This document shows, piece after piece, positions 12,055-24,624 of a stretch of 55,034 nucleotides of DNA. A model generated the notes under the pieces. That model was not told the DNA's origin. It did no database searches and was given only the letters and a program-made list of their open reading frames with translations. The position numbers and the translations under genes were made by a program. Each line of letters begins with the position of its first letter. Position 1 is the stretch's first letter. This stretch comes from Armatimonadia bacterium (GTDB taxonomy: Bacteria > Armatimonadota > Zipacnadia > Zipacnadales > JABUFB01): the NCBI GenBank assembly GCA_039679385.1, contig JBDKVB010000149.1:1-55034 (forward strand), written 5' to 3'.

Positions 12055-12858
12055 CTATACCTCCAGCTTGCCCTCACGACTCGCGGTCACGTAGCCCATG
12101 CACCACTCGTCCATCCCCAGGAGTGCGCTGGCCGCGAGCAGCTCGGCCATGATCTTCTCATCCAGCGGATCCATGATCGCCGAATCCAGCCCCGCCATCA
12201 TCGCCAGGCCCAGGAACACACGGTTCATCAGCTTGCGATTCGGGAGCCCAAAGGAGATGTTGCTCAGACCGCAGGTGATGTGGGCCTCGGGGCAGAACTC
12301 GTGCACCGCCTGGATGGCCTGGAACACGTGCCGGCCGGTCTCATGCTGCGTGCTCAGCGGGGCGATGACCGGATCCAGGAAGATGCGCTCCGGCTTCACG
12401 CCGGCCCCGGTGAGCTCATCAATCAGACGCTTTGCCGTCACCTCACGCTGCCCGGCCTGCGAGGGCATCCCCTCATCGCCCATGGCCAGGGCGACGACGT
12501 TTGCCCCGGTGTCGGCCACCAGTCCCAGCAGGCTGTCGATCTTGGCCTTCTCCGCGGTGATCGAGTTAATCATCGGAATCTGGTCGCCGCGGTAGGCGTC
12601 GAAGGCGGCCTCGATCGCCAGCACATTGGGGCTGTCGAAGCTCAGAGGCTTCTTCGTCGCGCTCTGCGCGGTCTCCACGAGCCAGCGCATGTCGCTGACC
12701 TCAGCGTCGCCCGTGGTGCCCGGATTGACATCGATGAAGGCAGCGCCGGCCTCATCCTGCCGCCGTGCCAGATCGATGATGTAGTCCGCGTTCTTGTCCG
12801 CGATGGCCTGCTTGGGGTTCTTGCGCGTCCCGTTGATCAGCTCGCCTATAAGGATCAT
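12055..12858 (-). CDS. Methyltetrahydrofolate:corrinoid methyltransferase (AcsE/MtgA-like)
   Basis: 267 residues, pterin-binding TIM barrel, close to the length of acetogen AcsE (about 262). It opens ILIGELINGTRKN, like the MeTr consensus, and has FDSPN, MINSITAEK, LDPVIAPL and GLSNISFGLPNR, which match the pterin-pocket strands and the Asn that stabilises the transition state in this family. Expected activity is methyl transfer between methyl-H4folate and a corrinoid protein. No corrinoid protein, reactivase or acetyl-CoA synthase gene is nearby, so the pathway (one-carbon degradation or partial Wood-Ljungdahl) is open. MetH-like or dihydropteroate-synthase functions are less likely, given the length and motif set. 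Confidence 0.82.
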   Translation of the reverse strand: MILIGELINGTRKNPKQAIADKNADYIIDLARRQDEAGAAFIDVNPGTTGDAEVSDMRWLVETAQSATKKPLSFDSPNVLAIEAAFDAYRGDQIPMINSITAEKAKIDSLLGLVADTGANVVALAMGDEGMPSQAGQREVTAKRLIDELTGAGVKPERIFLDPVIAPLSTQHETGRHVFQAIQAVHEFCPEAHITCGLSNISFGLPNRKLMNRVFLGLAMMAGLDSAIMDPLDEKIMAELLAASALLGMDEWCMGYVTASREGKLEV

Positions 12859-14760: not shown

Positions 14761-16659
14761 ATGCTGCGTGTCCTGCTACCCGCTGCCTTCCTGTCTCTGG
14801 CCCTGCCCGGACTGGCGCAGATCAGCCCCTTCGGCGTCTGCGCCCACCTTGGCGGAGGTCAGGAGTTCGCCGACCACGAGCGCGAGTTGCAGTTGATGGA
14901 GGAGGCCGGGATCCACTGGGCCCGCGCCGACTTCACCTGGGGCTACTTCGAGCGGGCCAAGGGGCAGTGGAACTTCGACAACTACGACACCATCGTCGCC
15001 GCGGCCAAGAAGCACCAGGTCACCTTGCTCCCGATCCTGTGCTACAACGTCGACTGGGCCTTCCCCGCCCACGAGCATCTCGACGACTGGTGCAACTACG
15101 TACGCACCATCGTGACCCGCTACCAGGCCGACCTGCGTTACTGGGAAGTCTGGAACGAGCCCAACATCAGCTTCTGGAAGCCCAAGCCCGATGCCGCTCA
15201 GTACGCCGAGCTGCTGAAGGCCACCTACAAGACCATCAAGGCCATCGACCCGGCGCTGCAGGTGGTCTATGGCGGAACCGCAGGCGTTCCCCTCGACTAT
15301 ATGCGCCAGACCTTTGCCGCAGGCGCCTTCGGCTCCTTTGACGTCCTGGCGATTCACCCCTACAACTACCCGACCCGTCCCGAAGAAGCTGCCAACATCG
15401 CCGAGCGGATCCCCGAGACCTGGAAGCTCCTCGAGGAGTACGGCGGCGGCAAGCGGATGTGGATCACCGAGTTCGGCTGGCCGACCCATGTCACCCCGAT
15501 GACGGGCGACAGCGGCGGCTTCCTCACCCAGATCATCACCTACTCGGCGAAGCAACGATTCCCCGGTCGCACGGACTTCAGCGTCGCAGTGATCGACGAG
15601 GCCGGTCTGCCCGGTCTCAGCCAGGTGGGAGGCCTCGTCCGCTCCAGTCTGAGCGCCCTGCCCGGCTTCTCGGCCCGCAGCGTGGGCCTTGCCGAGCTGG
15701 AGAAGCTTGCCCCGGCAACCACCCAGGTTCTCGTCATGCCGACCAACGAGTCCTACCCCGCCGACTACTACCCGGCTCTGCTCAAGTTCGTCCGCGACGG
15801 AGGCCTGCTGGTCCATCTGGGCGGTGTGCCCTTCTACTACGCCTCCACCTTCAAGGACGGCAAGTGGGAGTCACCCGGTGCCGGCGACGCCGGTCGTGCG
15901 CCACTGCACGTGGGCTGGAAGGCCTGGTGGATCGAGAAGGGTGTGCCCGAGAAGGCTGCCTCGGCGAAGCTCGTCGTCGGCCCCGAGTCCGGCATCACCC
16001 TTCCCGAAAAGCTGGAGACCACGCGCTGGCTCACCGACAGCGGGCTCAAGGGCAAGGACAAGTTCGTCCCGCTGGTCGCGGCCTACAACGGCAAGGACTT
16101 TATCGGCTACCCCGTCGCCTTGTACCTGTATGACAGCGAGCTCAGGGGCGGCTTCCTCAGCGCCATCGTAGATGTCAACGCGAACGGTGTCCCGGAGGAC
16201 ACCGAGGCCCTGTACCTGCCCCGGGCCTACATGAACACCCTCGCCCTCGGCGTCGAGAACGTCTTCTGGTACGAGTTCCGCGACGGCGGCAACGATGCGA
16301 CCTACAACGAGCACCGCTTCGGCATTATCCACAACGCTCTGGCTCCCAAGCCCGCCTACCAGGCCTACCAGACCATGACGAAGGCCCTGGGTAAGGGCAA
16401 GTTCCTTGAGAAGCGTGACCTCGGCGAGGGCATCAACTGCTTCCTCTTCGATAACGGGACCTCGAAGACCGCCGCCTTGTGGCTGGCTCGTGGAACCGGG
16501 AGTGTGGATCTCTCCTTTACGGGGCCGAAGGTGGAGGCCTTCGACTACCTCGGCAAGCCGGTGGAACTCGGGATGCTCGACGGCTTCGTCACGCTGAACC
16601 TGAGCGAAAAGGTCCTCTACGTCACCGGTATCGACGACCTTGTGCAGCTACGCAACTAA
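14761..16659 (+). CDS. Secreted clan GH-A glycoside hydrolase with inserted domain
   Basis: 632 residues, signal peptide about 1-19. The TIM-barrel part (about 22-245) has EVWNEPN, with Glu133 as the likely acid/base, and WITEFGW, with Glu237 as the likely nucleophile, as in GH5/GH39-type retaining enzymes. Residues about 252-478 interrupt the barrel with an alpha/beta segment resembling a class I glutamine-amidotransferase-like (beta-galactosidase trimerisation-like) fold (VLVMPTNESY, GGLLVHLGG) plus a beta-rich part. The barrel then resumes with VFWYEFRDGG and APKPAYQAY (about 500-535). A small C-terminal beta domain follows. AGAAGGAG-like Shine-Dalgarno precedes the ATG. Substrate unknown. 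Confidence 0.82.
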   Translation: MLRVLLPAAFLSLALPGLAQISPFGVCAHLGGGQEFADHERELQLMEEAGIHWARADFTWGYFERAKGQWNFDNYDTIVAAAKKHQVTLLPILCYNVDWAFPAHEHLDDWCNYVRTIVTRYQADLRYWEVWNEPNISFWKPKPDAAQYAELLKATYKTIKAIDPALQVVYGGTAGVPLDYMRQTFAAGAFGSFDVLAIHPYNYPTRPEEAANIAERIPETWKLLEEYGGGKRMWITEFGWPTHVTPMTGDSGGFLTQIITYSAKQRFPGRTDFSVAVIDEAGLPGLSQVGGLVRSSLSALPGFSARSVGLAELEKLAPATTQVLVMPTNESYPADYYPALLKFVRDGGLLVHLGGVPFYYASTFKDGKWESPGAGDAGRAPLHVGWKAWWIEKGVPEKAASAKLVVGPESGITLPEKLETTRWLTDSGLKGKDKFVPLVAAYNGKDFIGYPVALYLYDSELRGGFLSAIVDVNANGVPEDTEALYLPRAYMNTLALGVENVFWYEFRDGGNDATYNEHRFGIIHNALAPKPAYQAYQTMTKALGKGKFLEKRDLGEGINCFLFDNGTSKTAALWLARGTGSVDLSFTGPKVEAFDYLGKPVELGMLDGFVTLNLSEKVLYVTGIDDLVQLRN

Positions 16660-16816: not shown

Positions 16817-17941
16817 ATGGCCCACGCCTACACACCCGGCCTGCGAATCACCGACTCGACGGTCCTGCGCAAGGAGCGGCGGTTGCCTCTGCCCGGCACC
16901 GTGCATGTTGAGCTCGGCGGGCAGGTGACTGCCCGCGACCTCGTCGCCTCGACGGCCCTGCCCGGCAACGTCACGACGGTCAACGTGTCGCGTGAGCTGA
17001 ACTTGCAGCCCGAGGAAGTGCCCGCGGCGATGCTCAAGGCCGAGGGCGACTCGGTGCAGGCCGGCGAGTTCCTCGCTGAGACCCGCGCGCTCTGGGGTCT
17101 GTTCCACTCGACCGCACGCTCTACCGTCTCCGGCACCATCGAGGCCATCAGTGCGGTCACCGGTCAGGTCCTGGTACGCGGCGAGCCGATCCCGGTGAAT
17201 CTCGAAGCCTATGTCGGCGGCGAAGTGGTCGAGATCCTCGGCAGCGAGGGTGTGGTGGTCGAGGCCCACTGTGCGCTCCTGCAGGGCATCTTCGGCTTCG
17301 GCGGCGAGGCCTACGGAGAGATCGCGCTGCGTGCCTCCGGCCCCGACGAAGTCCTCGACGCCTCCGCTCTCGATGAGAGCTGCGAGGGCAAGGTCATCGT
17401 CGGCGGGTGCCTCGTAACCGGTGCGGCCCTGCATCGAGCCGCGGAGCTGAAGGCCCGCGGCATCGTCGTTGGCGGCATCGGGCATCAGGACCTCGACGAC
17501 TTCCTCGGCTATCCGCTGGGTGTGGCCATTACCGGCCACGAACACAAGGGCATCACGCTGGTCGTCACCGAGGGCTTCGGCCAGATCACCATGGCGCAGC
17601 GTTCCTTCGACCTGCTCAAGGCCAGGGAGGGTCAGGAAGCGTCGATCAATGGCGCGACCCAGATCCGTGCCGGAGTGATCCGTCCCGAGGTCATCGTCAC
17701 GCACTCGCAGGAACTGAAAGCCGCCCAGAGGGGCGAGGCCCAGGACGGCGGGCTCCGCATCGGAGCACCGATCCGCCTCATCCGTGACCCCTACTTCGGA
17801 GTTCTGGCCACCGTGGCGGCCTTGCCCGAGGAGTTGCGGCAGATCGAGACCGAGGCCCTGGTCCGCGTCTTGGTCGCCGAGTTGCCCGACGGACGACAGG
17901 TAGTCGTGCCAAGAGCCAACGTCGAAACCATCGAGAGCTAG
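16817..17941 (+). CDS. Barrel-sandwich and KOW-like protein of DUF6754 cluster
   Basis: 374 residues, no signal peptide, probably cytoplasmic. Around residues 70-150 the pattern EGDSVQAGEFLAET followed by STVSGTIEAI resembles lipoyl/biotinyl-type barrel-sandwich hybrids, but no modification Lys motif (MKM) is seen. The C-terminal ~55 residues (RDPYFGVLATVAAL ... DGRQVVVPRANVE) look like a KOW/SH3-like beta barrel. ATG 16817 follows GGGAG by 4 nt; an in-frame start at 16670 has no such support. First gene of a six-gene run on the same strand. I do not recognise a named family with known function. Confidence 0.7.
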   Translation: MAHAYTPGLRITDSTVLRKERRLPLPGTVHVELGGQVTARDLVASTALPGNVTTVNVSRELNLQPEEVPAAMLKAEGDSVQAGEFLAETRALWGLFHSTARSTVSGTIEAISAVTGQVLVRGEPIPVNLEAYVGGEVVEILGSEGVVVEAHCALLQGIFGFGGEAYGEIALRASGPDEVLDASALDESCEGKVIVGGCLVTGAALHRAAELKARGIVVGGIGHQDLDDFLGYPLGVAITGHEHKGITLVVTEGFGQITMAQRSFDLLKAREGQEASINGATQIRAGVIRPEVIVTHSQELKAAQRGEAQDGGLRIGAPIRLIRDPYFGVLATVAALPEELRQIETEALVRVLVAELPDGRQVVVPRANVETIES

Positions 17942-17980
17942 CCCGCGGGACTCTCAGCCCGCTGCGAGGCCTTCCGACCC

Positions 17981-19261
17981 ATGAGAGCATCTGCGCTCAG
18001 GCGACGCTTGCTTCTTCCCCTGGCCGTGACGGTCTTTGCGACGCTGGCCTTGCACGCAAGGTGCCAGGCAGCGCCCGTCACGACCGCCGATCCTCGCGCG
18101 CCCAGAGCCGTCACCGTGACCAACGACAGCGAGGATAAGGCCGGCAGCACCCTCCTTGTCGAATGGAAAGCGCCGACAGCCCCGCCCGGCGAGGGCAAGG
18201 AGTTGGTCGGCTACCAGGTATCCGTGGCCGAGGAGGGTAAGGACTTCCAGCCCGAATCGCCCCTGCCGCCGAAGGCAACAGACTCCAAAGCGAAGGACCT
18301 CTATCCCGGACGCTCCTACCGGATCAAGGTGGCAGCCCTCTACGCCGAATCGGGATCGCCCTGGATCGCACCGGGAGCCGAGGCACCCAAACCCGAGCCC
18401 GGCAAACCCGCCGCGAAGCAGGCCGAGGTAGTCTCCTCCGCCGAAGTCGGCCCGGCGGTTCCCGTAGGACTGTGGTACGATCCGGCCAAGACCAATGTCC
18501 TCGTCGGTGTGCTGCTCTATACCATCGTCGTCATCCTGTGCTTCGCCTACGCGCGGCGCAAGGACATGTACGTGCGACCGATTGCCGGTCTGCAGGCTGT
18601 GGACGACGCCATTGGTCGGGCCACCGAGATGGGCCGACCAATGCTCTTCGTGTCGGGCCTGACCTACCTCGGCGAGATCTCCACCATCGCCTCCGCGCTG
18701 TTCCTCGGCCACCTTGCCAGGCGCACGGCCGCCTACGAGACCCCGATTCTGGTTCCCTGCTACGATCCGCTCGTCATGGCCGCCGAGCGCGAGATCGTCC
18801 GCGAGGCCTACCTCGAGGCCGGCCACCCGCAGACCTACCGGCCCGACAACATCTTCTTCGTCACCGACAGCCAGTTCGGCTACGTGGCCGCCGTCGACGG
18901 GCTCATGGTTCGCGAGAAGCCCGCAGCCAACTTCTTCGTCGGCTTCTTCTACGCCGAGTCCCTGATCCTGGCTGAAACGGGCAACCAGACCGGAGCCATC
19001 CAGATCGCCGCCACCGACGCCGACACCCAGATCCCCTTCTTCGTGACCGCCTGCGACTACACCCTGATGGGCGAAGAGCTGTACGCGGCCAGCGCTTACC
19101 TGTCTCGTCACCCGACCCTCCTGGCGCAGCTCAAAGGCCAGGACATCGGCAAAGCCATCATCACCTGTCTGCTGGTTCTGGGCACCCTTGCCGCGACCGC
19201 CGAAGCCTTCGGCTTCAAGCAGGTCGCCGATCTCGTCCTGAAGTGGTTCAGCGCGCAGTAG
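17981..19261 (+). CDS. FN3-DUF6754 membrane protein
   Basis: 426 residues. Signal peptide about 1-30, a fibronectin type III-like domain about 38-150 (LLVEWKAPTAP ... LYPGRSYRIKVAALY), a membrane helix about 170-192, then a DUF6754 domain about 195-385 with MYVRPIAGLQAVDDAIGRA, FVTDSQFGYVAAV and ACDYTLMGEELYAASAYLS, and a final helix about 391-412. The positive-inside rule places FN3 outside and DUF6754 in the cytoplasm. DUF6754 has no established function to my knowledge. It starts 39 nt after the previous stop and precedes a polytopic membrane protein by 30 nt. Confidence 0.8.
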   Translation: MRASALRRRLLLPLAVTVFATLALHARCQAAPVTTADPRAPRAVTVTNDSEDKAGSTLLVEWKAPTAPPGEGKELVGYQVSVAEEGKDFQPESPLPPKATDSKAKDLYPGRSYRIKVAALYAESGSPWIAPGAEAPKPEPGKPAAKQAEVVSSAEVGPAVPVGLWYDPAKTNVLVGVLLYTIVVILCFAYARRKDMYVRPIAGLQAVDDAIGRATEMGRPMLFVSGLTYLGEISTIASALFLGHLARRTAAYETPILVPCYDPLVMAAEREIVREAYLEAGHPQTYRPDNIFFVTDSQFGYVAAVDGLMVREKPAANFFVGFFYAESLILAETGNQTGAIQIAATDADTQIPFFVTACDYTLMGEELYAASAYLSRHPTLLAQLKGQDIGKAIITCLLVLGTLAATAEAFGFKQVADLVLKWFSAQ

Positions 19262-19291
19262 CCACACTCAAGGCGTCCCACCCAATCAACT

Positions 19292-19918
19292 ATGAAAGCA
19301 TTGCGCGTACACATCCCAATCCTGCTCGGCTTTCTCGGCGGCATGTTCTTCCTTGTGCAGTTCTTCATGCCGCACAAGGCGATCCAGGCCACCTACGAGG
19401 AGTTCAACATCTGGCTCCGGATCATCGCCGCCTTCGGCATCATCCTGGGGATCGCCAGCCTGATGTCGCGCCATCTGTCCAAGATTCGCCGCCGCCAGCA
19501 GGACTGGCAGTACAGCATCCTCACCGTCGTCTCCTTTGTGTTCGTCTGTGTCGTCGGCATCTGGAAGGGCAAGGACCCCGGCACCGCCTTCTCCTGGAGC
19601 TTCCAGAACATGCTGGTGCCCCTGGATGCGACGATGTTTGCGCTGCTGGCCTTCTTCATGGCCTCGGCAGCCTACCGGACCTTCCGGGCACGTACGCCTG
19701 AGGCCACCATCCTGCTCGTGGCCGCCGTCATCGTCATGCTGGGCCGGGTACCGATCGGCGAGATGATGTGGCACAAGCTCCCGGTGGTGACCGAGTGGCT
19801 GATGAGCGTGCCGGCCGTGGCCAGCAAGCGTGCCATCATCTTCGGGTCGGCGCTGGGCGGCATCGCCACCTCCCTGCGCATCATCCTGGGTATCGAGCGC
19901 TCGCACATCGGAGGATGA
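19292..19918 (+). CDS. Polytopic membrane protein of DUF6754 cluster
   Basis: 208 residues, about five to six membrane helices, starting MKALRVHIPILLGFLGGMFF. A basic cytoplasmic loop (SRHLSKIRRRQQDWQY, about residues 69-84) separates the first helices from the rest. Conserved-looking polar positions include WSFQNMLVPLDATMFALLAF and VPIGEMMWHKL. No family recognised. It is separated by 10 nt from the next gene and by 30 nt from the DUF6754 gene, so co-expression and complex formation are likely. Start codon ATG; Shine-Dalgarno weak. Confidence 0.75.
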   Translation: MKALRVHIPILLGFLGGMFFLVQFFMPHKAIQATYEEFNIWLRIIAAFGIILGIASLMSRHLSKIRRRQQDWQYSILTVVSFVFVCVVGIWKGKDPGTAFSWSFQNMLVPLDATMFALLAFFMASAAYRTFRARTPEATILLVAAVIVMLGRVPIGEMMWHKLPVVTEWLMSVPAVASKRAIIFGSALGGIATSLRIILGIERSHIGG

Positions 19919-19928
19919 GCATGCCGGG

Positions 19929-20783
19929 GTGAGCCAGGACTCGGCTGATCCCTATCGGTTCGTGCAGCGCCTTGCGAGCCTTGATCGTCGTTGGGTCTTC
20001 CTGGCGATCGCTGTCGCCGTCACGGCGCCCTTTGTCATGAAGTGGGTCATGCCCGTGGGCTCGGTGAACGCACGCACTCAGCGAGTGTTCGACGTCTTGC
20101 AGAAGGCCCAGCCGGGTGAGGCGGTCATGATCGCCTTTGACTACGGCCCGGCGGCGATGCCCGAGCTGCAGCCCATGGCCGTCGCTCTGATCCGCCACGC
20201 CCTGAGCCGGAATCTGCGCGTCGTCGCCGTCGCGCTGGACCTTCAGGGCGTGCTGCTGGCCGATGCCGCCTTCGCGCAGGCAAGCAAGGGGATCGCGGGC
20301 AAAGAGGCCACCCGGGACTATGTGAACCTGGGGTTCAAGCCCGGCTACGAGCTCGTGATCCTGGGCATGGGCTCCAATCTCGTCAAGACCTACGCTCAGG
20401 ATGCCGCCGGACACTCGACCGCCGGCCTTCCTGTCCTGCGAGGCCTGGCGAAGCTGTCGGACCTGCGGCTGGTCATCGACCTGGCCCAGAGCGACACACC
20501 GACGGCGTGGATTCTGTTCGGCTATGAGCGGTTCCATGTGCCCCTGGCGGCGGGTGTGACGGCGGTCATGGCGACCGACTTCTATCCCTACCTGGGGACC
20601 GGGCAGCTAACCGGCCTCATCAGCGGCCTCAAGGGGGCGGCTGAGTACGAGACACTGCTCGGCAAGCCCGACAAGGGCACGCTGGGGATGACTTCCCAGT
20701 CGGTGGCCCATGTGATGGTCGTGTTCCTGGTGCTGCTGGGCAACCTTGGCTACATGCTGGCGCGTCGTCGCCCGCAATCCTGA
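19929..20783 (+). CDS. Membrane-anchored alpha/beta protein, paralog A
   Basis: 284 residues with a GTG start. GGAGG ends 14 nt upstream, so the exact start is uncertain. N-terminal helix about residues 20-38 after SLDRRW, and a C-terminal helix about 260-278 followed by ARRRPQS. Positive-inside charges place the central ~220 residues outside the cytoplasm. That domain has strand-helix alternation with FDYGPAAMPEL, YVNLGFKPG, ILGMGSNLVKTY and GVTAVMATDFYPYL. It is a tandem paralog of the next gene; both keep GMTSQSVAH before the last helix. Function unknown. Confidence 0.78.
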   Translation: MSQDSADPYRFVQRLASLDRRWVFLAIAVAVTAPFVMKWVMPVGSVNARTQRVFDVLQKAQPGEAVMIAFDYGPAAMPELQPMAVALIRHALSRNLRVVAVALDLQGVLLADAAFAQASKGIAGKEATRDYVNLGFKPGYELVILGMGSNLVKTYAQDAAGHSTAGLPVLRGLAKLSDLRLVIDLAQSDTPTAWILFGYERFHVPLAAGVTAVMATDFYPYLGTGQLTGLISGLKGAAEYETLLGKPDKGTLGMTSQSVAHVMVVFLVLLGNLGYMLARRRPQS

Positions 20784-20825
20784 CCTTCGTCACCGACCTG
20801 CCGGGTCCGCGCGAAGGTCCTGGGC

Positions 20826-21650
20826 TTGGATTTCATGCAACGATTTGTCGCCCTCGACCGCAGATGGATCTTCCTGGTGATCGGCCTCGCCGTCGCTGCA
20901 CCCTTCCTGTTCCATTGGGCGCTGCCGGTGGCGTCGGTTAGCGACCGCACCAAGAACGTGTACGACTACATCGAGGCGGCCAAGCCGGGCGACGCGATCC
21001 TGATCTCCTTCTCCTATGGCCCGGCGGCCATGCCCGAGCTACATCCTATGGCGCTGGCCGTCCTGCGTCATGCCCTCAGCAAGGACCTGCGCGTCGTCGC
21101 CATGAGCATGTCGGTGCAGGGCAGCCTGATGGCCGATGACGCGCTGGCGAAGGTCGCCAAAGACTTCCCCAACAAGAAGGACGGCACCGACTTCGTCAAT
21201 CTGGGCTTCAAGCCCGGCGGCTACCTTGTCGTGCTCGGGATGGGCGACAACATCCCCAAGACCTATCCCGCCGACTCCAAGAAGCGGCCCCTGGGTACGC
21301 TGCCTGTGATGCGGGGCCTTATGGGCCTCAAGGACCTGCGGATGGTGCTCGACCTGGCTTCGAGCCGAACGCCCGACACCTGGATCCTGTTCGGACACGA
21401 GCGCTTCAAAGCCGACGTGGCGCTGGGCGTGACCGCGGTCATGGCGACGGACTACTACCCGTATCTGAGCACCAAGCAGATTCTGGGCCTGCTCAACGGA
21501 CTGCGCGGTGCCGCGGATTACGAGGCGCTGCTTGGCAGGCAGGACAACGGCTTCCTGGGGATGACGAGCCAGTCGGTCGCACACCTGCTCATCATCCTCT
21601 TTGTCCTCCTGGGTAACATCGGCTATTTCGCCACAAGGAAGCGCCCCTGA
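20826..21650 (+). CDS. Membrane-anchored alpha/beta protein, paralog B
   Basis: 274 residues, the same layout as the preceding gene: LDRRWIFLVIGLAVAAP near the N-terminus, an outer alpha/beta domain with FSYGPAAMPEL, FVNLGFKPGG, LGMGDNIPKTY and GVTAVMATDYYPYL, then GMTSQSVAH and a terminal helix. The TTG at 20826 has GAAGG 8 nt upstream and is preferred over ATG 20835, which lacks a Shine-Dalgarno. Conservation of the same motifs in both copies, with different intervening sequence, suggests two distinct subunits of one complex rather than a recent duplication. Confidence 0.78.
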   Translation: MDFMQRFVALDRRWIFLVIGLAVAAPFLFHWALPVASVSDRTKNVYDYIEAAKPGDAILISFSYGPAAMPELHPMALAVLRHALSKDLRVVAMSMSVQGSLMADDALAKVAKDFPNKKDGTDFVNLGFKPGGYLVVLGMGDNIPKTYPADSKKRPLGTLPVMRGLMGLKDLRMVLDLASSRTPDTWILFGHERFKADVALGVTAVMATDYYPYLSTKQILGLLNGLRGAADYEALLGRQDNGFLGMTSQSVAHLLIILFVLLGNIGYFATRKRP

Positions 21651-21782
21651 GTCTGAGCCTGATACAGGTCGCTGGACGCAGGGCTTTCAGTGAGTGACAG
21701 GCAGGCGAGGCGTCTGCAAGGACCGTCGGCAGGAGTCTGCTCTTCGCGGATCCGCTCTCGGTGATCGCCTCAGGAGACTGCG

Positions 21783-22496
21783 ATGGAACAAGCCCAACAG
21801 GCGGCAGTGCAGTGGTTGGGGATCTCGGCTGACGTGTGGGGCACCTGGCTCGCTGCCCTTCTCACGCTGGCGATCTTCAGCTTCCTGTACGCCGATAACC
21901 CGGTGTACAAGGCAGCCGAGCACCTCTTCGTGGGTGTCTCGGCGGCCTACGGTGTCGTCATCACCTACCACGACTACGTGATGCCCGACATCTTCCGCCC
22001 GCTGTTTCGACCCGGCGAGGCAACGCCGCCGCTGGAGCATCCCAAGTACCTACTGATTGTTCCGCTGGCCATCGGGGCGCTGCTGCTGACGCGCTTCATC
22101 CCCAAGATCGACTACCTCTCACGCTGGCCGATCGCCCTGTCCATGGGCGCCGCCGCGGGTCTGGGCATTCCCGTCTCCGTCCAGGGCTACTTCCTGGAGC
22201 AGATGAGCGGAACCATGAAGCCGCTGTGGCCGATCGCCGGGCAGGTCACTCCGGCCGATGCCCTCAACAACTTCCTGATTGTCCTGGGGGTCATCTGTAC
22301 CCTCAGCTATTTCTACTTCTCGCTCGAACACAAGGGCTTGCTGGGCAAGGCCTCCAAGGTAGGAATCTGGTTCCTGATGGTGGCCTTCGGTGCGGGTTTC
22401 GGCAACACGGTCATGGCCCGTATCTCCCTGCTCATCGGCCGCGTACAGTTCCTGCTGTATGACTTCTGGCCGACCTTGCGTCACCCCTTCGGATGA
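21783..22496 (+). CDS. Polytopic membrane protein ending the DUF6754 cluster
   Basis: 237 residues, six to seven membrane helices, AGGAG Shine-Dalgarno before the ATG. Hydrophilic links include EHPKYLLIVPL and YADNPVYKAAEHLFVGVSAAYGV, the latter probably within the membrane. The C-terminus LYDFWPTLRHPFG is cytoplasmic or outside; topology is unclear. No known family recognised. It follows paralog B by 132 nt and ends the run of same-strand membrane genes beginning at 16817. Confidence 0.72.
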   Translation: MEQAQQAAVQWLGISADVWGTWLAALLTLAIFSFLYADNPVYKAAEHLFVGVSAAYGVVITYHDYVMPDIFRPLFRPGEATPPLEHPKYLLIVPLAIGALLLTRFIPKIDYLSRWPIALSMGAAAGLGIPVSVQGYFLEQMSGTMKPLWPIAGQVTPADALNNFLIVLGVICTLSYFYFSLEHKGLLGKASKVGIWFLMVAFGAGFGNTVMARISLLIGRVQFLLYDFWPTLRHPFG

Positions 22497-22615: not shown

Positions 22616-23587
22616 ATGATCGCCCCAGTTTTCCGTCTCCCTCTGTTGGTCGCCCCCTTCTTGCTCCTGGCACTTCCCGCACCGATCGGAGCTCAGATCG
22701 TGAGTGACTCCCGCCCGGCCAAGGTGGCCGCAGAGACCCCGACTCTGTGTATCGGCCTCGTCGCCGACGTGCAGTATGCCGACAAGGACACCGTGGGCCG
22801 TCGCCGCTATCGTGAAGCCGGCGACAAGCTTCGTGCCTGTGTCGCCGACCTTGCCACCCGAAAGCTCGACTTCGTGGTTGACCTCGGCGACCTGATCGAC
22901 GGTCACGGCGCACTCAGCCAGGCAGAGCTTGACCAGATGTGCGCGCTGTACAAGGCTCTTCCGGTGCCGGTGCACCACGTGATAGGCAACCACGACCTGC
23001 TGGTGGGCCGACCGGCGCTGATGCGCAGCTTCGGCCTGACGACGCCCTACTACGAGTGGCGGCTCAGGGGCTGGCGGTTCCTCGTCCTTGACGCGATGGA
23101 GATCAGCAGCCTCGCACCGATCGGCCCGGAGGAGAAGGCCCTGGCCAAGGACTATCTGGCCCGGCAGCCCAATCTCCAGACCTACAACGGCGCCCTCACC
23201 GACCGGCAACTGGGCTGGCTTCGCGAGCGGCTGGCCGACGTCCGCCGGTGTGGCGAGCGAGCGATCGTGCTGTGCCATCTCCCGACGGTCCTTCCGGCCA
23301 GCAACGCCTACCACCTGATCTGGAACCACGAACAGGTCGCCGCAATCCTGGAGCAGTCCGGCTGCGTCGCCGCCTACCTCTCCGGTCATGACCATGCCGG
23401 AGGCTATGCCTTCCACGCGGGCATCCACCACCTGACGATGCCCGGTCTCGTCGAGGCGCCGGAGGGCGGCAACGGCTACGGGATTCTCGAGGTCTATCCC
23501 GACCGGCTCGTGCTCAGAGGCGTCGGAACTGTCGTCTCGCGCACCATGACACTCACCGCTAAGGAAGCAGAGGTCCAGGCACCATGA
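22616..23587 (+). CDS. Exported metallophosphoesterase, ADPRibase-Mn-like
   Basis: 323 residues, signal peptide about 1-26. Metal motifs in order: LVADVQYAD (about residues 47-55), DLGDLIDG, GNHD, CHLP and SGHDHAGGY. The DVQYAD-type first motif (Gln rather than His) and a nearby RRRYREA match Mn-dependent ADP-ribose/CDP-alcohol diphosphatases. Expected reaction is hydrolysis of a phosphodiester or pyrophosphate outside the cytoplasm; the true substrate is unknown. The stop overlaps the ATG of the UroD-like gene (ATGA), so the two are translationally coupled despite different compartments. Confidence 0.85.
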   Translation: MIAPVFRLPLLVAPFLLLALPAPIGAQIVSDSRPAKVAAETPTLCIGLVADVQYADKDTVGRRRYREAGDKLRACVADLATRKLDFVVDLGDLIDGHGALSQAELDQMCALYKALPVPVHHVIGNHDLLVGRPALMRSFGLTTPYYEWRLRGWRFLVLDAMEISSLAPIGPEEKALAKDYLARQPNLQTYNGALTDRQLGWLRERLADVRRCGERAIVLCHLPTVLPASNAYHLIWNHEQVAAILEQSGCVAAYLSGHDHAGGYAFHAGIHHLTMPGLVEAPEGGNGYGILEVYPDRLVLRGVGTVVSRTMTLTAKEAEVQAP

Positions 23588-24624
23588 CACGCCGTGAGCG
23601 CGTTCTCGCCGCCATCGAGTTCAAAGGTCCCGATCGGTGCCCCATCGAGCACTACGCTTTCCCGGGCGCTATCCACCAGCATGGTCAGCGCCTGCTGGAC
23701 CTGGCGGAGCGCTACCCGGACGACTTCGGCAACGGGGTCTACCGCTCCGGGCAGCAGGCCTGGGAGGAGGGGCAGGACGTCAACGATGTGATCGAGTGGC
23801 AGGATGGCTGGGGCACCACCTGGCGTCGTCTGCGCGGCTACACCACCGGCGAGGTCTACCGACCGGCGATCCCGGACTGGGGTTCCTGGCGCGACTACCA
23901 GTTCCCGGCCTTGCCTCCCGACAGCCACTATGAGCAGTTCGCGGCCTCCGTTCAGCAGCGCCATCCCGAGGAGTTCGTCACCGCCTCCGGTGGCGGGTTC
24001 TTCCAGCTCATGCAGCACATGCGGGGACCGGCGAACTACTTCGAGGACCTCGCCGAGGACAACGAGGGCGTCCACGAGCTGGCCGACCGCATGGTCGACT
24101 TCAACCTCCACTCCATCGAGCGCTACGTGAAGGCGGGGTGCGACTGCATCCGCTTTGGTGATGACTGGGGCTCCCAGGACCGCCTGCTCATTCACCCCGA
24201 CATGTGGCGGCGGTTCTTCAAGCCCCGCTATGCGAAGATGTTTGCCGTGGCTCGCGATGCCGGCGCCCAGGTCTGGTTCCACACCGATGGATGGATCCTG
24301 GAGATCATCGACGACCTCATCGAGATCGGCGTCACCGTCTTGAACCCGCAGCATGCGTGCATGGGCACGAAAAGAGTAGGAGATATCTGTGGCGGCCGGG
24401 TTTGCATCCGCACGGACATCGACCGGCAATGGGTCATCCCCTTCGGCACACCGCAGGACGTTGAGGCGGCCGTCAAAGAGGCCATCGAGGCCTTCGGGTC
24501 CTTCAGCGGCGGCTGTATGCTACATGGCGAGATCGGTCCAAACGTTCCTTTCGAGAACATCGAGGCTCTCTATTCGGGCTTCTACGAATACGGCACCTAC
24601 CCACTGTCCTGGCTGACGAAGTAG
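23584..24624 (+). CDS. Uroporphyrinogen decarboxylase-like (methyltransferase family) protein
   Basis: 346 residues, UroD/MtaA/CmuA-type TIM barrel. Typical family segments are RERVLAAIEFKGPDRCPIEH at the N-terminus, FGDDWGSQDRLLIHPDMW in the middle, and PQDVEAAVKEAIEAF near the C-terminus. The heme-pathway substrate-binding N-terminus of true HemE is absent. Corrinoid methyltransferases of the family carry a zinc H-x-C after the fifth strand; here the matching place reads FHTDGW, with Asp instead of Cys. This makes classical Zn-thiolate chemistry doubtful. A role in O- or N-demethylation or sugar-acid breakdown is inference. Confidence 0.8.
   Translation: MTRRERVLAAIEFKGPDRCPIEHYAFPGAIHQHGQRLLDLAERYPDDFGNGVYRSGQQAWEEGQDVNDVIEWQDGWGTTWRRLRGYTTGEVYRPAIPDWGSWRDYQFPALPPDSHYEQFAASVQQRHPEEFVTASGGGFFQLMQHMRGPANYFEDLAEDNEGVHELADRMVDFNLHSIERYVKAGCDCIRFGDDWGSQDRLLIHPDMWRRFFKPRYAKMFAVARDAGAQVWFHTDGWILEIIDDLIEIGVTVLNPQHACMGTKRVGDICGGRVCIRTDIDRQWVIPFGTPQDVEAAVKEAIEAFGSFSGGCMLHGEIGPNVPFENIEALYSGFYEYGTYPLSWLTK

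Follow-up and report, generated by a model that had tools for sequence, protein, structure and literature searches.

The window considered here, a 55,034-nucleotide stretch of DNA from an Armatimonadia bacterium, carries a run of six genes, designated A to F, which share one strand and are separated in turn by 39, 30, 10, 42-51 and 132 bases (Table 1). Recomputed coordinates and gaps (10-132 bases) agree with the original prediction of a compact set at 16817-22496, and the protein types that it had read from the sequence were likewise recovered. The predicted FN3-DUF6754 protein is B, both of whose domains were matched in Pfam (FN3, E 3e-7; DUF6754, E 2e-110), and which qualifies as a full member of the DUF6754 family (PF20539) at 368-370 bits against a cut-off of 27, aligned over model positions 5-255 of 257. 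The two polytopic membrane proteins correspond to C, with six predicted transmembrane (TM) helices, and F, and the two paralogous anchored proteins to D and E, which are 58% identical and have one TM segment at each terminus with a soluble domain between.

Table 1. Position and features of genes A to F in the window, of M in the same genome and of fused M-A reading frames at other loci.
Gene	Location	Strand	Length	Features
A	window, 16817-17941	+	374 aa	soluble barrel-sandwich protein, KOW-like C-terminal segment; partner of M
B	window, 17981-19261	+	426 aa	signal/TM, FN3 (~18101-18364), TM, DUF6754 (18473-19222), TM
C	window, 19292-19918	+	208 aa	membrane protein, six predicted TM helices, both termini inside
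D	window, 19929 (GTG start)-20783	+	284 aa	anchored, TM-(beta-alpha)6-TM, predicted outside domain
E	window, 20835 (ATG) or 20826 (TTG)-21650	+	271-274 aa	duplicate of D
F	window, 21783-22496	+	237 aa	polytopic membrane protein, ends the BCDF core
M	contig C50, ~110,560-112,340	-		window's genome; in a block with Y and Z
Fused M-A	L210:897-3935		1013 aa	not adjoining BCDF
Fused M-A	L211:8240-11173		978 aa	not adjoining BCDF
Fused M-A	L212:8907-11531		875 aa	not adjoining BCDF

Searches of existing collections placed few of these products. C, D, E and F gave nothing above cut-off in Pfam or NCBIfam, C and F matched no transporter family, and in neither of the two does any Cys or His reach 80% conservation. 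In the F alignment, 16 columns are invariant. The matches of A to barrel-sandwich families in Pfam are sub-threshold (Biotin_lipoyl, 0.0017; RnfC_N, 0.02), its score being below the curated cut-off for Biotinyl/lipoyl carriers (18.6 versus 22.1 bits), and its alignment profile yields weak KOW-type matches of the Spt5/NusG kind (E 0.05-0.4); mean column identity of A is 61% across 25 sequences from several phyla. Profile searches of the PDB, made with A, B, C, D, F and a partner family described below, M, found nothing significant. PADLOC defence models recognised none of A to D or F at E up to 0.01, and PHROGs gave no matches.

Other genes near the run may be recorded here. A glycoside-hydrolase-like gene (Glyco_hydro_cc / GH39) at 14761-16659 (+) occupies the place usually held by M in most relatives of the same class. 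An ORF at 12055-12858 (-) resembling pterin-binding methyltransferases and a URO-D family protein encoded at 23584-24624 (+) are both possible corrinoid methyl-transfer genes.

Predicted folds and topology

The AlphaFold2 model of D (pLDDT 95.5, pTM 0.90) consists of an N-terminal TM helix, a (beta-alpha)6 Rossmann-like domain and a C-terminal TM helix, and that of B places FN3 ahead of elements in the same order as those of D, with a pLDDT of 79.5 overall and above 90 across most of the DUF6754 domain. By charge bias, the domain of D is predicted to lie outside and that of B inside, in the cytoplasm, a topology drawn from charge counts only. Invariant residues are found at strand ends in both domains; the conserved positions there include E79, D130, T211 and E241 of D, and E326, Q350, D359 and E366 of B. 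Profile comparison of B with D detected no homology except in a short segment at the last TM helix, so that a common ancestry of the two is offered only as a suggestion; C and F, compared in the same way, showed no homology beyond a short segment.

Foldseek related D to generic Rossmann proteins only and the FN3 of B to fibronectins. With VIA-align, the B and D domains reached Z scores of ~8-11.5 to Sir2, CODH epsilon, transhydrogenase domain III and RCK domains, moderately above background, with moderate Z also to many unrelated Rossmann folds. DHS-like NAD/FAD-binding and RCK Rossmann folds (Sir2, CODH epsilon, transhydrogenase dIII, TrkA/MthK) have a parallel alpha/beta arrangement similar to that of the B and D domains, which differ in being at most ~16% identical to them, in having no recognised nucleotide motif and in being flanked by TM segments. 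Ahead of the DUF6754 domain, B varies from ~20 to 750 residues across homologues, and FN3-like N-terminal regions precede DUF6754 in other phyla too. B proteins of Cloacimonadota (L153, L171, L178 and L160) carry ~700-800 aa in this position, a region otherwise unassigned in which one of them has a weak FN3 match.

A four-gene core and its partner families

Conservation of the neighbours beside DUF6754 had been named in the original prediction as the test of its reading, and DUF6754 genes regularly lacking them were not found: C, D and F lie downstream of B, on the same strand and within ~4.5 kb, in 169 of 179 evaluable cases from at least 10 phyla. Two of the ten misses (L161, L053) reflect the bookkeeping of overlapping reading frames, and several others are a second, lone B at a locus already holding a full cassette. 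The invariant core is four genes, BCDF. A stands immediately upstream of B in 44 cases, in several phyla. Pairs of D genes occur in only a handful of loci, which argues that E arose by local duplication and is no conserved sixth part; it is a lineage-specific copy of D, not a separate conserved component. From the six-gene make-up first proposed, the BCDF core is retained, often with A before it; E drops out as a duplicate, and three further families, Y, Z and M, are missing from the window.

These additional families emerged upstream from clustering of flanking genes, in the layout Y-Z-M-A-B-C-D-F in several phyla; in the window's genome, the Y-Z-M block is on a different contig (C50). In G297, a divergent genome, the families are retained in the order Z-B-C-D-F-M-A. 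Tandem cassettes, BCDF-BCDF and BCDF-BCDF-BCDF, are frequent, and at some loci a single M-A pair adjoins two or three of them. Y is a small, PH-like membrane protein with a weak match to bPH_6, and Z a protein of ~110 aa with invariant P39, L44, E45, P49, P63 and E95.

M matches the MutL family PF13941 along its whole length (E ~1e-125, 413-426 bits against a cut-off of 27, positions 1-450 of 450), retains the ASKHA-type phosphate motifs DCGSTTTK and VDIGGATTD as well as a GSGG motif, and averages 66% column identity across phyla. Its scores are below those set for the GlmL equivalog NF040745 (221 versus 475 bits) and for TIGR01319 (156 versus 204 bits), and well short of the Or-4 equivalog cut-off. 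M constitutes a subfamily of the GlmL/MutL-type actin-fold (ASKHA) ATPases that is dedicated to this set. With the GlmL/MutL proteins that assist glutamate and ornithine mutases (PF13941, TIGR01319), it shares the ASKHA core and a family match over its full length; it differs from these in scoring beneath their cut-offs, in bearing a C-terminal extension of ~120 aa and in accompanying a putative membrane complex, apparently not a mutase. M and A are fused in a single reading frame in two genomes (G370, twice, and G395).

The A part of one such fusion has a weak NQRA_N match, which, together with the weak RnfC_N similarity of A itself, would be expected if the set were a redox-driven ion pump akin to NQR/RNF, with A in the role of NqrA/RnfC, C and F as the two six-helix subunits and D as the outside subunit. 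The overall parts list is indeed alike, comprising a barrel-sandwich peripheral subunit, two multi-helix subunits and one subunit with an outside domain. However, the membrane families of NQR/RNF and their conserved redox residues are absent: Pfam scans gave no Rnf-Nqr, NQR2_RnfD_RnfE or FMN_bind match (E up to 1 for C-F), and C and F conserve no Cys or His for Fe-S. This lack of both family matches and redox residues renders such a pump very unlikely, and assignment of the set to NQR/RNF was rejected on the same grounds.

A sensory receptor would account for other features of the cassettes. D and FN3 would detect a ligand outside, C and F would relay its binding, and B, with A and M, would set the cytoplasmic response. 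Ligand-type domains predicted on either side of the membrane, the variable N-terminal region of B and the multiplication of cassettes are in keeping with this role, but no output domain (kinase, cyclase or regulator) is conserved with the set, and sensor or regulator genes adjoin only some loci; we regard a receptor of this kind as unlikely.

At about ten loci in several phyla, glycine-cleavage genes (a GcvH-like gene and a GcvP-subunit-like ORF) directly adjoin Y-Z-M-A (L077, L080, L083, L105-L109, L125, L179 and L206; on the opposite strand at L066). Their proximity is possibly a functional clue, or a matter of shared ancestry; since such neighbours are limited to a minority of loci, glycine cleavage was set aside as a guide to the function of the system.

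Distribution, co-occurrence and joint loss

Of 291 Armatimonadota genomes, 252 carry DUF6754 (181/194 when only those of high quality are counted), as do 24 of 106 sampled genomes from other phyla, some with three to six copies; it is absent from all 14 well-known control genomes. A scan of genome contigs recovered at least 557 relatives, the best 80 of which include representatives of WOR-3/Stahlbacteria, Cloacimonadota, Zixibacteria, Latescibacterota and Poribacteria, as well as Eisenbacteria, Edwardsbacteria, Fermentibacteria, Coatesbacteria and anammox Planctomycetota.

The other families follow this distribution closely. Outside the phylum, profiles were compared over 73 non-Armatimonadota genomes, namely the 24 positive for DUF6754 and 49 negatives. 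D was found in 24/24 positives and 0/49 negatives, and A in 22/24 (all but G347 and G366) and 0/49, with a Fisher value for A of 1e-16 that ignores phylogeny. Z occurred in 21/24 positives, against one spurious match with five stops among the 49 negatives. M was detected in 21/24 positives, including two divergent cases, and gave only distant matches in 2/49 negatives; detectable M is absent from the DUF6754-positive genomes G296, G347 and G366. Given these carriers without M or A, the M-A pair may not be strictly required. Within Armatimonadota, M and A were both present in 40/40 tested DUF6754-positive genomes, often unlinked to BCDF, and both were missing from 10 of the 13 high-quality DUF6754-negative ones, giving for M among high-quality genomes a Fisher value of 6e-8, again with phylogeny left out of account. 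The three DUF6754-negative Armatimonadota that have M and A are fragmented assemblies of 440-1060 contigs. Losses of the system are spread over several different families. In the window's own family, the three relatives (G001-G003) are without B, D, A, M and Z, although the taxonomic order around them retains the system; they constitute a natural loss lineage for comparison.

Gene order and co-occurrence together strongly support the original suggestion that DUF6754 is the centre of a multi-gene membrane system not described before. We consider it highly probable (about 0.9) that the locus is the membrane half of one functional system of eight families, Y, Z, M, A, B, C, D and F.

The family membership of M raises a different possibility, that the task of M and A is the maintenance of a B12-dependent mutase and that BCDF is an unrelated neighbour. 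M does fall within PF13941 MutL, and MM_CoA_mutase is encoded by 18/24 of the non-Armatimonadota carriers. Against this, MM_CoA_mutase is missing from 19/20 tested DUF6754-positive Armatimonadota, the window's genome included (in a search confined to that mutase family), M falls far beneath the GlmL equivalog cut-off, and it tracks BCDF and A even where it is unlinked to them. The absence of MM_CoA_mutase from these genomes leaves the proposal with hardly any likelihood, and this, with the sub-cut-off GlmL score, is why M was not filed as a B12-mutase chaperone.

An actin-fold ATPase also invites comparison with envelope machinery. Type IV pilus PilMNOP and T2SS GspL platforms combine an actin-fold cytoplasmic ATPase-like protein with small membrane proteins, and M, with its predicted membrane partners, would resemble them in this; membrane topology differs, however, no pilin or secretin genes were seen alongside, and Pfam and NCBIfam scans gave no PilM/N/O/P family match. 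By analogy with PilM and FtsA, M could dock or polymerise at the membrane while BCDF and A organise the proteins of the envelope or the synthesis of a polymer, nothing being transported by way of C and F. FN3 and the outside domain of D would suit the protein-protein contacts of such a scaffold. Omp85, detected in 23/24 of the non-Armatimonadota carriers, indicates that the system belongs mainly to diderm bacteria, which speaks for an envelope role, but it is present in most DUF6754-negative genomes as well. In addition, genes for division, pili or Bam/Lpt were not seen linked to the set in the clustered flanks, and the invariant strand-end residues of B and D would suggest ligand sites. We regard an envelope-assembly function as possible, at well under even odds. 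A genome in which no Omp85 was detected (G349) has divergent M, F and D at L222:10214-15198, the D protein bearing ~400 aa of VPDWLR-type repeats N-terminal to its first TM, an arrangement compatible with a cytoplasmic N-terminus.

A proposed membrane machine

Taken as a single eight-family system, the set is best read as an inner-membrane complex run by a soluble ATPase and its adaptor, which would probably move or sense a ligand. B, C, D and F would make up the inner-membrane unit, its transmembrane core being formed by some twelve helices of C and F. B would place its Rossmann-like domain in the cytoplasm, and D a domain of the same plan outside, beside the FN3 of B. M and its barrel-sandwich partner A would dock from the cytoplasm, and Y and Z may be accessory subunits. 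How the assembly might work can be proposed only tentatively, and we hold a transport or gating mechanism to be plausible at less than even odds. D would capture a ligand on the outer side; M, on binding or hydrolysing ATP, would act through A to alter the state of B; and the ligand, or a conformational signal, would then cross the membrane by way of the C/F core. Physical assembly of the complex, the presence of a ligand, the direction of its movement and the coupling to ATP are all suppositions of this model. ASKHA proteins are not known to drive transport, so that the ATP coupling has a weak foundation. Multiple BCDF cassettes in one genome could provide differing specificities served by one common M-A motor.

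No paper was found that describes Y-Z-M-A-B-C-D-F as a system, and the function given for it here is a proposal. DUF6754 (PF20539) is known only as a domain family, its operon, partners and phylogenetic profile being undescribed in the open-access literature searched. No paper in that literature (subscription articles and preprints lying outside the search) names DUF6754 or PF13941, and open-access work on GlmL-type MutL yielded nothing about the system. No function has been assigned to seven of its eight families, and the remaining one, M, comes from a family whose only known role is that of an accessory to mutases. There is some chance, though not a large one, that the set represents a membrane machine of a new class, with M and the adaptor A driving exchangeable BCDF cassettes with mirrored Rossmann-like domains across the inner membrane. 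It is similarly speculative to suppose that this arrangement embodies a principle of transport or signal transfer unlike that of ABC, ECF, TonB, NQR or secretion systems.

The system is found in nearly all Armatimonadota and in many little-studied phyla, and its parts are kept or lost jointly even where long stretches of the genome separate them. Such close co-occurrence makes its function directly testable, since the set is present in a closed genome of the Fimbriimonas type and lineages with natural loss are there for comparison. The system could account for a basic trait in the physiology of a large and mostly uncultured share of bacterial diversity.
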